Shown here one piece after another: positions 5,169 to 11,169 of a DNA stretch of 34,127 nt; positions within the stretch are counted from its first letter, which is position 1; every line of letters starts with the position of its first letter. The translations under genes and the position numbers were made by a program. The stretch is from a virus: positions 1 through 34,127 of IMG/VR virus record IMGVR_UViG_3300031857_000711; one strand, given 5' to 3'. The notes beneath the pieces were generated by a model. The model searched no databases. It had not been told where the DNA came from and worked only from the letters and a program-made list of their open reading frames with translations.

Positions 5169-5300
5169 TTATCTATTCTTTAGTTTGTTTACCAAATTTT
5201 CAGACTTAACAATACTTCTATACTTCCTTGCTATATCTCTTGGTATAAAAAATGAAGGTATTTTTATCATAATAGGCTTTTCTTTTAAATCTTGTGTCAT
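5169..5300 (-). CDS. Small hypothetical protein (43 aa)
   Basis: Starts MTQDLKEKPIMIKIPS and ends VNKLKNR. It is basic at its C-terminus and has no recognised domain. It fits exactly between the zinc-ribbon gene (stop at 5302) and the 46-aa gene (start 5167), with TAATATG at both junctions. That spacing repeats through the series and is the main evidence that it is translated. Confidence 0.5.
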   Translation of the reverse strand: MTQDLKEKPIMIKIPSFFIPRDIARKYRSIVKSENLVNKLKNR

Positions 5301-5301
5301 A

Positions 5302-5496
5302 TTATCGGTTTTTGGTTGGCGTTCTGATTGATATAATTCCCACCTTACTCTTCACCATTAGGTTATTGTGCCCCATCCAAGCTCCACACTTATCACACTC
5401 AAACTGCACCTCCCTAATCTGACTATTCCAAACATACTCCTCCTGGACTACACCACACTTGCATTGATAGTTCTTCTTACCAAATGTATCTTTCAT
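5302..5496 (-). CDS. Zinc-ribbon protein (64 aa)
   Basis: Contains one C-x-C pair near the N-terminus (QCKCGVV) and a C-x2-C pair (ECDKCGAW) about 20 residues later, a typical zinc-ribbon spacing. No other domain is present. Small zinc ribbons in phages often bind nucleic acid or act as adaptors, but nothing here defines the partner. It is the second gene of the late unit, ahead of the terminase genes, and its TAA is followed by the next ATG after one base. Confidence 0.65.
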   Translation of the reverse strand: MKDTFGKKNYQCKCGVVQEEYVWNSQIREVQFECDKCGAWMGHNNLMVKSKVGIISIRTPTKNR

Positions 5497-5526
5497 AGTT
5501 CTTGCTTTAACTTGGTTACGTTATTG

Positions 5527-5649
5527 CTAAGAGGCTTTACCAAGTATTAAAATTAAACCTAATGTAATACAAAGAATAAATTTTACAAAAACTAAAGCAA
5601 TTATAAAATGCCTATCTGCAGTTTCTGATGTTGTTTCAAATCTACTCAT
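5527..5649 (-). CDS. Small single-pass membrane protein (40 aa)
   Basis: Starts MSRFETTSETADRH, followed by a hydrophobic segment of about 22 residues (FIIALVFVKFILCITLGLIL) and a short KAS tail. I do not recognise a family. It is the first ORF downstream of a TAGCTTTG promoter element, whose last base lies exactly 16 bases before this ATG. It is therefore probably the first gene of the late transcript. Confidence 0.5.
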   Translation of the reverse strand: MSRFETTSETADRHFIIALVFVKFILCITLGLILILGKAS

Positions 5650-5664
5650 AGCGTTAACTGAAGT

Positions 5665-5695
5665 CAAAGCTACAACTATTATACCAAAACAACAA
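5665..5695 (-). promoter_or_regulatory. Predicted late promoter at the head of the minus-strand unit
   Basis: On the minus strand a -33-like TTG (5695-5693) is followed after 20 bases by TAGCTTTG (5672-5665), matching the Bacteroidota TTG-N19/20-TAnnTTTG pattern. The first ORF begins 16 bases after the element, the same distance as at 27419 and 32837. A TATAAT lies between the two elements and may be coincidental. Confidence 0.5.
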
Positions 5696-5831
5696 TACAA
5701 AAGTTAAAATTGGTGAAAACAATGTTTTATATCAAAAATGTGAAGGGCACATTGGCGTTGTAACATTGATTACACGAATGAAAGGGGTATGGGGTATACC
5801 ATCCCAAAAAATCCACATAGATAGCTCATAC

Positions 5832-5849
5832 AATAGGTAAGCACCTATT
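5832..5849. repeat. Inverted repeat, operator-like
   Basis: Perfect 7-bp arms AATAGGT and ACCTATT separated by AAGC. The size and symmetry suit a dimeric regulator, but no obvious repressor gene is present. There is no T-run after it, so it is not a terminator. Confidence 0.35.
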
Positions 5850-6063
5850 TTCTCAAGTTTAGGTATGTCTATGTACTATGCAGTCGACAAAGTGTCTAAA
5901 TTAGCCTCTAAATAGCCATAAAATTGATACTAACTTATTTAGTAGGTAATATAGTTATAAATACAATTTAGATTGCTGTCAGTTGCGTTACATAAGAACA
6001 AACCAGATAAATAATCACTACCTCAATTCAATTTCTTTGGTATAGTATGCACAATATAATTAA

Positions 6064-6165
6064 GGATATATTATTTATTTTAGTATATATTATATCTTAT
6101 ATTATACAATATATCTTATATTATATATTATATATTATATACTATATATAGTATAGAATATATCC
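6064..6165. repeat. AT-only block bounded by inverted repeats
   Basis: The block begins GGATATATT (6064-6072) and ends with its inverse AATATATCC (6157-6165). Between them the sequence is almost entirely A and T, with repeated ATTATAT units. It includes a perfect 18-bp palindrome TATACTATATATAGTATA at 6138-6155. Such DNA melts or extrudes easily and could serve as an unwinding element or a regulator platform. Confidence 0.5.
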
Positions 6166-6523: not shown

Positions 6524-8137
6524 ATGAAAACTATCAAAGAGTGGTTTCAATTATTACCACAAGCAATAAGAGACAAGGCAGCAATTAACTACATCATCCA
6601 GAAAGGTGCTGACTCTTATGAAAATCACACAGCAGAGTCACTTAAAAATGCAGTAGACTCCTTTGTATGGAGTGAGACAACAGAAGGACAAGATTACTGG
6701 TATACAATTAAGCAATCATGTAATGGTGACCAATATTGTCAAGGTATTACCATGTCATCATCATTCATTAAGATGCTGAGAAGTATTGAGAATAGTAGTG
6801 ATATTGCAAGGTTGCTACTGACACCAATGTACACTACCATCACAGATTTTGCTGACTACATCACCATGCGAGGTGATATGGGAAGTTATCTACCTAATGG
6901 CAGAGAGCATAAGACTAATGATGAAGGGAAATGGAGTAGAGATGGTAGACAAGAAATGAAGATTGGAAAACTTGCAAGAAAGCTACTGAGACAATCATAC
7001 ATAGATACTTTGACAGATGCAGATTTTGAGAAGTTCACTAATTGTGTCAAGTCTTATATTTCTTTGATAGGTGATGATGATGGTGATGGTAAGAAATTAG
7101 AATTGAGACTGATTGAAGGTGATGATATTTATGATGCGTATGATGCAGATAATTATAGCACAATATTGGGGAAGGATAGCAACTTATGGGGAAGTTGTAT
7201 GAGACATGAAGAGTGTAGAGACTGGTTAAGTATTTATGCAGATAACAAAAAAGTATGCCAGTTGCTAATTGCAGAGGACACAGAAAAAAAGATATTAGGC
7301 AGAGCAATTATCTGGAAGTTAGATGATGGTAGAGTGGCAATGGACACCATCTACTCACCAGATAGTATAAGAGAAACTTTTTTCAATTATGCTATCAAAG
7401 AAGGATGGTATTACAAGTCATCACAATCATGTCATAATCATAATTTTGATAGATTTGATGGTGAGTATCATCAAGAGTCTAATTTCAATAGAGCAATCGT
7501 AACACTTACACATCATCAATATGATGTCTACCCATATATGGATAGTTTATATTATTTAAGCACTGATGGTAGACTAAGCAATGAAATGTTCACTGGTGAT
7601 AAATTCTACATATTAAGAGACACTGGTGGAGGATATGAGAGGGGTGGATATGTAGAGTGTGAGTGGAGTGGAAGATGGGTAGATGAGGAAGAGACTACCT
7701 ATGTAGATTATGAGAGACCTAATGGACAACAATTGGATGGTAGAATACATCAAGATGAACTGGTATGCACAATTGATGAAGATTGGATATTAAGTGAAGA
7801 TGCAGTTGAAGAGTATAGCACTGGTGATTGGTATTTAAGAAATGATGAAAGGATTGTGAATGTACCATCAAGGGATGAATATAGACTGCTTGAGGATTGC
7901 ACATATAGTGATTATCATAGTCAGTATATATTGAGTGATGAGGTAGTTCAAACTGGTGATGGACATATCATACATGAAGATGAGGCAGTGGAGTGCTGTA
8001 TTGATGGATTAATGTATGATGAAGATGATATCATGACAGAAATAATTGATGGCATCACATATAAATTCCATCAAGACAATCAAGAACAATTTTTCGAACA
8101 ATTTAAACAAGTAAGCAATGAGACAGGAGTTAATTAA
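6524..8137 (+). CDS. Large hypothetical protein with degenerate C-terminal repeats
   Basis: 537 residues. I do not recognise a named family. The N-terminal 200 residues are helical. The middle holds GSCM (223-226), then LSIYADNKKVCQLLI and GRAIIW (259-264) followed by MDTIYSPD, a block that looks like a folded domain. Residues about 376-515 form a chain of short modules of 15-20 residues, each an aromatic/hydrophobic stretch followed by an acidic pair and Val or Ile (for example DEDWILSEDAVEE, GDWYLRNDERIV, QYILSDEVV, HIIHEDEAVE, GLMYDEDDIM). The protein is rich in Asp, Glu and Tyr. The stop overlaps the peptidase gene by 20 bases, so the two are probably made together. It could be a scaffold or an inhibitor; nothing shows which. 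Confidence 0.8.
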   Translation: MKTIKEWFQLLPQAIRDKAAINYIIQKGADSYENHTAESLKNAVDSFVWSETTEGQDYWYTIKQSCNGDQYCQGITMSSSFIKMLRSIENSSDIARLLLTPMYTTITDFADYITMRGDMGSYLPNGREHKTNDEGKWSRDGRQEMKIGKLARKLLRQSYIDTLTDADFEKFTNCVKSYISLIGDDDGDGKKLELRLIEGDDIYDAYDADNYSTILGKDSNLWGSCMRHEECRDWLSIYADNKKVCQLLIAEDTEKKILGRAIIWKLDDGRVAMDTIYSPDSIRETFFNYAIKEGWYYKSSQSCHNHNFDRFDGEYHQESNFNRAIVTLTHHQYDVYPYMDSLYYLSTDGRLSNEMFTGDKFYILRDTGGGYERGGYVECEWSGRWVDEEETTYVDYERPNGQQLDGRIHQDELVCTIDEDWILSEDAVEEYSTGDWYLRNDERIVNVPSRDEYRLLEDCTYSDYHSQYILSDEVVQTGDGHIIHEDEAVECCIDGLMYDEDDIMTEIIDGITYKFHQDNQEQFFEQFKQVSNETGVN

Positions 8138-9086
8138 TGTACTAAGTGTGCAAAGTGAATCTTATAATAGCACTATGATGGAATCTTATATTACACACCA
8201 GATAGAAAGCATGGGACTAACTGCAATACATGACAAGGGAAATATCTATTGTATTAAAGGGATTGCAGATACTTACCCATGTATTGTTTCTCACATGGAT
8301 AGTGTGCATAAGATAATACCAGATGATGACTATCATATCATGTTTGATGATCGTATGGCAATGGGTATAAATTTAGCTACCATGAAGCCCACTGGATGTG
8401 GAGGTGATGACAAAGTGGGTATCTATGCTTGTCTAAGATTATTACAAGAGTATGAATGTATCAAAGTAGCTTTTTTCAAAGATGAAGAAGTGGGATGTGA
8501 TGGTAGCTATGATGCAGATGTAGAATTTTTTAAGGATGTAAGATTCATACTGCAATGTGATAGAAGAGGTAACACAGATTTTGTGAATGAAATATATGGC
8601 ACCCAGTTGCAGAATAAGAAATTCAAAAAGCAAGTAGCACCACTACTTAGAAATCATGGCTACAATTTTAGCAGTGGAATGTTGACAGATGTTTATGCAC
8701 TTACACAGATAGGAGTAAGCGTGTCAGTTGCTAACATATCATGTGGTTATTACAATCCACATTGTGATGATGAGATTGTGATGTTTGAAGATGTTGACAA
8801 CTGCTTAGACTTATGTAGAGCAATCTTTGACACTCTGGAGGACACATATCCAGTGCAAAGGCAAAAAGCGTATAAGAGTCTATCAAAATACAACTACAAT
8901 AGATACAGCTATGATTATGATGATTTTGAGACTGGATGGGGAGCTACTACACCAGTGAAGGACACATCCACTACTGATATTGAAATATGCGAAGGATGCA
9001 ATGAATGGAGGCTCACAAAGGATATTGAGTATGTGTATAAGTATAGCACTTATATGTGTAAGGATTGTGTTGAAGTGTATAGTTAA
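8118..9086 (+). CDS. Predicted di-zinc peptidase (M20/M28/PepT-like) with C-terminal zinc ribbon
   Basis: 322 residues. All metal-site motifs of the co-catalytic zinc exopeptidase fold appear in order: SHMD (H59, D61), GGDD (D97, D98), DEE (E123, E124 as catalytic base and ligand), QCD (D148) and NPHCDDE (H215). This resembles tripeptidase T and related aminopeptidases, but it is short and seems to lack most or all of the inserted dimerisation domain of M20 enzymes. After about residue 255 comes a Tyr-rich linker and a zinc ribbon with C291, C294, C314 and C317, which may supply substrate or partner binding. The substrate is unknown; small peptides or a modified host or signalling molecule are possible. 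It overlaps the preceding gene by 20 bases and is followed by a strong terminator. Confidence 0.72.
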   Translation: MRQELINVLSVQSESYNSTMMESYITHQIESMGLTAIHDKGNIYCIKGIADTYPCIVSHMDSVHKIIPDDDYHIMFDDRMAMGINLATMKPTGCGGDDKVGIYACLRLLQEYECIKVAFFKDEEVGCDGSYDADVEFFKDVRFILQCDRRGNTDFVNEIYGTQLQNKKFKKQVAPLLRNHGYNFSSGMLTDVYALTQIGVSVSVANISCGYYNPHCDDEIVMFEDVDNCLDLCRAIFDTLEDTYPVQRQKAYKSLSKYNYNRYSYDYDDFETGWGATTPVKDTSTTDIEICEGCNEWRLTKDIEYVYKYSTYMCKDCVEVYS

Positions 9087-9372: not shown

Positions 9373-9473
9373 GCCAAAAACCTGCCAAAAATCTTCTATG
9401 GGCATAGCCAAAAATCCAGCAAAAACTCCCAAAAACCTGCCAAAAATCCATGACAAAAATCTGTGACAAAAAC
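9373..9473 (+). repeat. Eight helically phased CAAAAA iterons
   Basis: The unit is roughly (G/C)CCAAAAA(C/T)C. CAAAAA cores begin at 9375, 9386, 9409, 9420, 9430, 9441, 9454 and 9467, so spacings are 11, 23, 11, 10, 11, 13 and 13 bases. All are in the same orientation and close to one or two helical turns apart. The array runs directly into AT-rich DNA. Confidence 0.6.
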
Positions 9474-9553
9474 CTTTTTAACAATAAATTAACTAAAATA
9501 AATTAAAATATCACAAATAATATATAATTTTACCAAACCAAAACAAAAAACCA

Positions 9554-10639: not shown

Positions 10640-10817
10640 AGCAATGCTTAGACATGGAGATATGAAAAAAATCTGTGCTATCACTGGGCTTTCACCATAC
10701 CTATTAAAGACAAGATTAGAGAAGCACGATTACGAGACAGTTGAAATAGTAAAAACTTACTACGCCAACAAGTTAGAAGCACTTAAAAACCAAATCAATG
10801 ACTACAGCGAAATTTAG
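10617..10817 (+). CDS. Small helix-turn-helix-like protein (66 aa)
   Basis: The stretch GDMKKICAITGLSPYLLKTRL (residues 14-34) has the pattern of a helix-turn-helix: helix, Gly-Leu-Ser turn, second helix. A basic helical C-terminus follows. It may be a small DNA-binding regulator, and is the only regulator-like early gene I noticed. It overlaps the gene before by 23 bases and the DnaA-like gene after by 20 bases. Confidence 0.5.
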   Translation: MIQVTDYRAMLRHGDMKKICAITGLSPYLLKTRLEKHDYETVEIVKTYYANKLEALKNQINDYSEI

Positions 10818-11169
10818 AATGACACGCAAGTCTTTACTAAGACCAAAAAACTATGAGGTAGATAAGGTTATAGTAGATAATGTAATCAATAATGCGGCTA
10901 AAGTATTTAATATAAGGCCTATTATGATTACAAATAAAGGTAGATATAGAGAGAATGTACTTGCACGAAATATGTGCTTTTATATCCTTCATGTTCACTA
11001 TAAACAAAAATCCGCCCAAATTGCCCCATACTTTAAAAGAGATAGGACTACAGTTTTACATGGCATAAACACTTTCGCAAACGATGTTGAAGTAGTGCCA
11101 TATTACATGGAGAAATATCAAGAAGTAAGAAAGAAGATTAAGGTACCTAAATTATATTCAGACAAATAA
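10798..11169 (+). CDS. Free-standing DnaA domain IV-like protein (123 aa)
   Basis: Residues about 24-95 resemble the DNA-binding domain of DnaA: an opening helix (VDNVINNAAKVFNI), a basic loop (NKGRYRENVLARNM), and the recognition segment RDRTTVLHGI at 81-90, close to the DnaA signature D-H-T-T-V-L-H. The AAA+ ATPase of full-length DnaA is absent. It could bind phage origin DNA, recruit host DnaA or compete with it; the family does not settle this. It lies 1.2 kb after the iteron block and before the recombination and helicase genes. Confidence 0.72.
   Translation: MTTAKFRMTRKSLLRPKNYEVDKVIVDNVINNAAKVFNIRPIMITNKGRYRENVLARNMCFYILHVHYKQKSAQIAPYFKRDRTTVLHGINTFANDVEVVPYYMEKYQEVRKKIKVPKLYSDK

Follow-up and report, generated by a model that had tools for sequence, protein, structure and literature searches.

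The gene at 8118–9086 of the window (the whole 34,127-nucleotide viral stretch that was analysed) encodes what its predicted fold and invariant ligands identify as a PepT/M42-like di-metal peptidase with an intact catalytic domain. This gene usually lies side by side with a second one, referred to here as SCM, in phages and conjugative elements alike, and the object of study is therefore the SCM–peptidase pair, both that of phages and that of conjugative elements from gut bacteria, and not the peptidase alone. We put at roughly 0.4 the probability that the peptidase belongs, as one of two proteins, to a conserved unit that modifies peptides or proteins and is used early in the host by both kinds of element. 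In the window the pair is laid out as follows:

6524–8137, + strand: SCM partner gene, 537 aa, directly upstream of the peptidase gene and overlapping it by 20 nt
8118–9086, + strand: gene for the predicted PepT/M42-like di-metal peptidase, 322 aa, from ATG to TAA
9110–9136, + strand: intrinsic-terminator-like hairpin with a T run after it (−16.5 kcal/mol, z = −3.3)

The hairpin, which a stricter terminator consensus scan did not list, lies just 3' of the peptidase gene and fits a two-gene SCM–peptidase transcription unit.

The pairing was assessed on 64 peptidase loci (dereplicated at 90% identity), made up of viral contigs collected independently of SCM together with later loci, some of which were reached through SCM searches. 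An SCM gene was located within 200 bp of the peptidase in 44 of the 64, on the same strand in 43 cases and with gaps of −98 to +133 bp, while the runner-up among neighbour families, counted over six genes from the peptidase as an internal control, reached 8 of 64. The same picture was obtained when the 80 loci gathered without reference to SCM were taken alone. A search with the SCM pattern only likewise recovered loci most of which have a peptidase next door; an alignment of the whole SCM family proved too diverse to serve here, and the search worked with a narrower alignment from viral contigs and, for genomes, one from conjugative elements. Counted reciprocally over all loci, a peptidase lay within 200 bp of 49 of 72 dereplicated SCM genes. 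SCM is upstream of the peptidase in 42 cases and downstream in 8, and at least three changes of gene order are needed on the peptidase tree; since the order changes this often while the neighbours stay, the adjacency survives reshuffling. No literature on a phage aminopeptidase–GNAT pair was found, and the pair as a unit is undescribed in searchable papers.

That 8118–9086 is a real gene, with chance excluded, follows from the match of its product to the PHROG 4191 'peptidase' profile (E = 2.8e-54, aa 2–268) and from copies of the protein at 81–92% identity on other contigs; the opposite strand is interrupted by stops. The protein is divided as follows, with the roles of E123 and E124 taken from the M20/M28/M42 families:

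8118–8852, + strand: predicted catalytic domain, aa 1–245, without a lid/dimerisation insert (AlphaFold2 pLDDT mostly >93; Foldseek matches to 4op4/4h2k and PepT)
8292–8294, + strand: presumed metal ligand H59 of the HxD motif, invariant in 57 homologues
8406–8408, + strand: presumed bridging metal ligand D97 of the GGDDKVG motif, invariant
8484–8489, + strand: E123 (presumed general base) and E124 (presumed ligand), invariant
8559–8561, + strand: presumed metal ligand D148, invariant
8760–8762, + strand: presumed metal ligand H215, invariant
8868–8972, + strand: predicted disordered linker, aa 251–285 (pLDDT <50)
8985–9077, + strand: C-terminal zinc-ribbon-like module, C291-x2-C294-x19-C314-x2-C317 (block pLDDT about 78–91)

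The AlphaFold2 model of the peptidase (mean pLDDT 88, pTM 0.77) is confident over aa 1–245, disordered over 251–285 and fairly confident again in the ribbon. Compared with the PDB by Foldseek, it matched the Bacillus PepT 3gb0 (E = 6e-12), with further fold matches to M42 TET peptidases (2wyr) and the DapE catalytic domain (4op4), and a sequence-profile search of the PDB led to the same three families. These are matches to the alpha/beta fold of MEROPS clan MH (M20/M28/M42), whose ligand order H-D-EE-D-H is also present; H59, D61, D97, E123, E124, D148 and H215 were invariant in 57 of 57 aligned homologues. The sequence-only reading had proposed a di-zinc exopeptidase bearing the complete M20/M28-type motif set (H59, D97, E123/E124, D148, H215), and this was borne out: the motifs are there and invariant, predicted fold and ligands argue for a di-metal peptidase, and the structure prediction and fold comparison suggested at the time returned a two-metal fold, with the two-metal geometry judged from the fold match and the invariance of the ligands. 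The substrates named in that reading, signalling peptides, antimicrobial peptides and peptide-linked nucleotides, are candidates.

Within the clan, the protein adds a new member to PHROG 4191, a family already known. It scores 19.8 bits against the curated cut-off of 255 for PepT proper and 17.7 bits against the gathering score of 23.2 for Pfam Peptidase_M42, a threshold passed by some phage relatives and by the conjugative-element copy. The model and Foldseek find the catalytic domain alone, without the lid/dimerisation domain that PepT and M42 enzymes possess.

The enzyme class had been described as rare in phages, a view that did not hold: tblastn detected relatives of the peptidase in 394 of the 50,697 phage records, the family already has the name 'peptidase' in PHROGs, and both the 'putative peptidase' KP34p11 and the upstream KP34p10 are among the proteins common to the KP34-like genus (PMC4411677). 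The phage relatives belong mostly to Autographiviridae of Klebsiella, Pectobacterium and Vibrio, with others in phages of Cellulophaga, Lactococcus, Enterococcus, Bacillus and Thermus, and the environmental phage peptidases group with those of Cellulophaga phages. The text of the fHe-Kpn01 paper, consulted for virion presence or toxicity of the KP34-like homologues, makes no mention of the peptidase. Two unusual loci were observed among the relatives. In one phage (L088:4879–7118), the peptidase gene is split at precisely the GGDD metal motif by an insert of about 1 kb that contains an ORF for a LAGLIDADG-like endonuclease (5291–6037); the insert is intron-like, the gene is unbroken in the close relatives L066 and L068, and an Rfam search gave no group I intron match. 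In the uncultured 636-kb phage LR756504 (L098:5565–11386), two peptidases of 402 aa, with a ribbon, and 719 aa stand in tandem, adjoining genes that we take, from how they read, to encode glutamyl-tRNA synthetase, GrpE and thioredoxin; SCM family matches occur at 14 places in the same genome.

The SCM label is taken from Ser224-Cys225-Met226 of the 6524–8137 protein, of which Ser224 and Cys225 are kept in 44 of 44 members and Met226 in 43. The protein matches no Pfam family, and its AlphaFold2 model (mean pLDDT 83.5, mostly >90 in the core and C-terminus) contains two parts of note:

7091–7558, + strand: conserved core, aa 190–345, GNAT-like by predicted fold, with invariant S224, C225, R260, D274, Y277, P337 and D340
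7634–8068, + strand: C-terminal beta repeats, about aa 371–515 (AlphaFold2 pLDDT mostly 84–97), a stretch of ~145 residues predicted to form short strand-helix-strand units

The top PDB matches of the model are GNAT acetyltransferases (probability 0.96–0.99), with a best E-value of 2.4e-3 that misses 0.001; FemX and L-PGS, which use aminoacyl-tRNA, rank lower, and viral acetyltransferases in BFVD were matched at E = 4e-3. None of the 44 SCM members matched a Pfam acetyltransferase (GNAT) profile, and the CoA pyrophosphate-binding motif Q/RxxGxG/A after beta-4 was absent from the 44 members checked, four regular-expression matches all falling at the GRA of beta-3. Because both the CoA P-loop and a Pfam GNAT match are lacking, SCM is called GNAT-like by fold and not an acetyltransferase, and with GNAT E-values above 0.001 it may be no acyltransferase at all.

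SCM genes without an adjacent peptidase are found mostly in large or jumbo phages that hold several copies. In L130, L135, L144, L160 and other phage contigs, SCM occurs solo or in tandem multi-copy arrangements with no peptidase nearby, and such peptidase-free copies suggest a wider SCM family with several jobs. A separate case was seen in Enterococcus phage H1 (L097:299–2170), where a 623-aa protein combines the SCM motif with treble-clef-like cysteines and a tail resembling beta repeats. It is encoded 2.4 kb away from a peptidase that bears a ribbon, and not adjacent to it; this is likely a Gram-positive-phage version of SCM.

The pair extends well beyond close relatives of the window phage. 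HMM comparison identifies the gene that directly precedes the peptidase in Autographiviridae as a remote homologue of SCM (Vibrio KF2, 2.6e-8; PhiM1, 3e-6; KP-Rio, 0.0045, which is weak alone), with the alignments falling on the C-terminal repeats. Comparison of the SCM model with BFVD added Klebsiella KpV48 (5e-11), Vibrio DE17 (1e-10) and Pectobacterium Nobby (7e-9), and these Autographiviridae homologues keep, in order, the SCM, GRA-/ARA-like and PY[LV]D motifs. Among Bacteroidales, the pair is carried by conjugative elements of Phocaeicola, Bacteroides, Parabacteroides, Barnesiella and Muribaculaceae, with two copies in Phocaeicola vulgatus ATCC 8482. An annotated Parabacteroides element has, next to TraO–TraJ, the order DUF4121, N-6 DNA methylase, SCM, peptidase, an order shared by most sister elements; the gene that follows the peptidase is presumably DUF932-like, as its sequence reads. 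In the searched host genomes only distant chromosomal matches were recovered (E between 4e-12 and 3e-5), with ORF lengths of about 490–507 aa and at most half of the query covered, so that in these genomes the peptidase lineage seems to be confined to mobile elements.

The Autographiviridae pair is positioned beside primase, helicase and polymerase, and the window pair beside a replication cluster. Three features of the window were observed in this region. Before the SCM gene, a gene-poor stretch at 6041–6147 holds AT-rich 19-nt tandem repeats, a possible origin or control region. Imperfect CCAAAAACCTGCCAAAAATC repeats at 9374–9475, between the SCM–peptidase unit and the next operon, could be iterons or binding sites, and the replication region includes, at 10798–11169, a 123-aa protein consisting of a DnaA C-terminal DNA-binding domain only (Pfam E = 1.5e-13).

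The C-terminal zinc ribbon claimed from the sequence was located at C291-x2-C294-x19-C314-x2-C317 and is fairly confident in the model, zinc binding being a putative property read from the cysteine pattern. It is less unusual than had been supposed, as nearly every peptidase of the wider clade bears one, but the idea that it points to a partner proved the useful one, with the SCM gene, with which the ribbon goes, as the likely partner. Scored strictly over the 64 peptidases, ribbon and adjacent SCM occurred together in 37, ribbon only in 2, SCM only in 7 and neither in 18, which gives a Fisher p of 1.9e-8 if relatedness is ignored; three Autographiviridae pairs, whose SCM falls short of the HMM threshold, enter this count as SCM-free. 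On the tree the ribbon changes five times and SCM four times, too few for significance, leaving an independent-pairs test without power, and the association is not independent of phylogeny. Of 51 pairs, 32 carry the ribbon on the peptidase alone, 8 on SCM alone (five from conjugative elements, two from Autographiviridae and one from another phage), 5 on both proteins and 6 on neither. That a ribbon can sit on either of the neighbouring proteins suggests that SCM and the peptidase work together. Homology of the peptidase ribbon with the SCM C-terminal repeats was considered and is not claimed: the secondary structures are similar as predicted, but a ribbon HMM failed to find the SCM repeats (best E = 0.17).

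According to the reading that we prefer, of a joint peptide- or protein-modifying unit, SCM and the peptidase would act on one class of substrate, with the ribbon and the SCM C-terminal beta repeats perhaps serving as docking or substrate-holding modules. SCM might transfer an acyl or aminoacyl group to the N-terminal amino group of a peptide or protein, or otherwise mark it, and the peptidase would remove terminal residues from the same substrate class. The pair would act in the cytoplasm soon after entry, in host takeover or counter-defence; an early cytoplasmic role is suggested by its neighbours, which are replication genes in the phages and, in conjugative elements, a DNA methylase, and by the fact that none of the annotated genomes examined had the pair within a lysis or structural module. 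Neither protein matched a PADLOC defence profile. A more specific version is tentative and, in its full detail, unlikely: an undescribed two-enzyme system in which a CoA-independent GNAT-fold SCM, with C225 as catalytic residue, would mark host peptides or N-termini for processing by a ribbon-docked peptidase, so disarming a widespread host response early.

Among the other explanations, the best placed is still an unlikely one, namely that a plain PepT-like aminopeptidase frees amino acids for phage translation, with SCM either bringing peptides or being unrelated. The closest folds are indeed those of broad aminopeptidases and tripeptidases, PepT and M42 profiles are the nearest named families, and several phages have a family peptidase with no SCM nearby, including Thermus P23-45, Lactococcus P087, Bacillus and Brevibacillus phages and a short ribbon-less clade; these cases, like the solo SCM copies, count against the joint unit. 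Amino-acid supply nevertheless leaves three observations unexplained: a usual partner with invariant residues of its own, the presence of the pair in conjugative elements that have no virion, and a ribbon on either partner.

By analogy with microcin C immunity, SCM might instead acylate, and the peptidase hydrolyse, a peptidyl- or aminoacyl-nucleotide or a similar small toxic conjugate, a combination of GNAT and peptidase that is a known toolkit in that immunity (PMC9239234). SCM is GNAT-like and both genes are carried by mobile elements, but SCM is without the CoA P-loop. The host range of the pair is, moreover, wider than the known microcin C targets, and such detoxification appears improbable. 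Quite improbable too, and again drawn from analogy, is a pathway that makes or turns over a small amino-acid product in N-acyl or carrier-bound form, as in the NAGGN trio (GNAT/ATP-grasp and M42 peptidase) or LysW/LysK (zinc-ribbon carrier and M20 hydrolase). TIGR03106 (NAGGN-system M42) and [LysW]-lysine hydrolase do turn up as weak profile matches to members of the family, deacylases are found among M20-type enzymes, one being DapE, which was matched by fold, and a ribbon on either partner could be a carrier. All these profile matches are, however, far below the curated cut-offs, no ATP-grasp or amidotransferase family is conserved nearby, and the peptidase ribbon does not have the acidic C-terminal signature of LysW. 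Finally, a protease for maturation of virion or structural proteins with a scaffold partner is very improbable, for although many phage peptidases process head proteins and the window comes from a tailed phage with genes for structural proteins, the substrates of PepT/M42 enzymes are short peptides, the pair is on the replication side in phages, and a separate head-maturation protease near the portal gene of the window (phrog_80, 94–885), together with the presence of the pair in conjugative elements without virions, argues against a lysis or maturation role.

The two genes are common to KP34-like phages, a group under study for phage therapy, to environmental phages and to conjugative elements of common gut bacteria. 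Previously the peptidase had a class name only and SCM no assigned function; their pairing gives a two-component unit that can be tested, and it points to an early process with which very different mobile elements find it worth interfering.

Compared with known systems, the window peptidase is nearest to the other members of PHROG 4191, such as KP34 gp11 and Cellulophaga phi38:1 gp038, which have the same catalytic domain and ligands, whereas the PHROG entry gives the function only as 'peptidase' and records neither the SCM partner nor the shifting ribbon. With PepT, the M42 TET peptidases and DapE of clan MH it has in common the predicted fold and the five-ligand di-metal site; it differs from them in the absence of the lid/dimerisation domain and the addition of a linker and ribbon. 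For SCM, the counterpart is KP34 gp10 (PHROG 6980, Drulisvirus), which resembles it in the SCM...PYLD plan, the Foldseek fold and the place before the peptidase; unlike in the window, KP34 gp10 bears the ribbon itself and its peptidase has none, and the similarity to the window SCM is at the limit. Rac of phiKMV-like phages is a phage GNAT that triggers cleavage of the host RNA polymerase alpha-subunit, so that its action leads to the proteolysis of a host protein (PMC7552054); with microcin C immunity, it is a precedent for the joint work of a GNAT and proteolysis. In contrast to SCM, Rac has an acetyl-CoA pocket, is encoded elsewhere in the genome (gp28) and relies on host proteases; SCM was rejected as a Rac homologue, as the chemistry class is the same but the gene position differs and no sequence link was found. 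In microcin C immunity, MccF and MccG are, unlike the window peptidase, not di-metal peptidases, yet together with the GNAT MccE2 they resemble the pair by enzyme class, as a GNAT and peptidases directed against one small substrate (PMC9239234).
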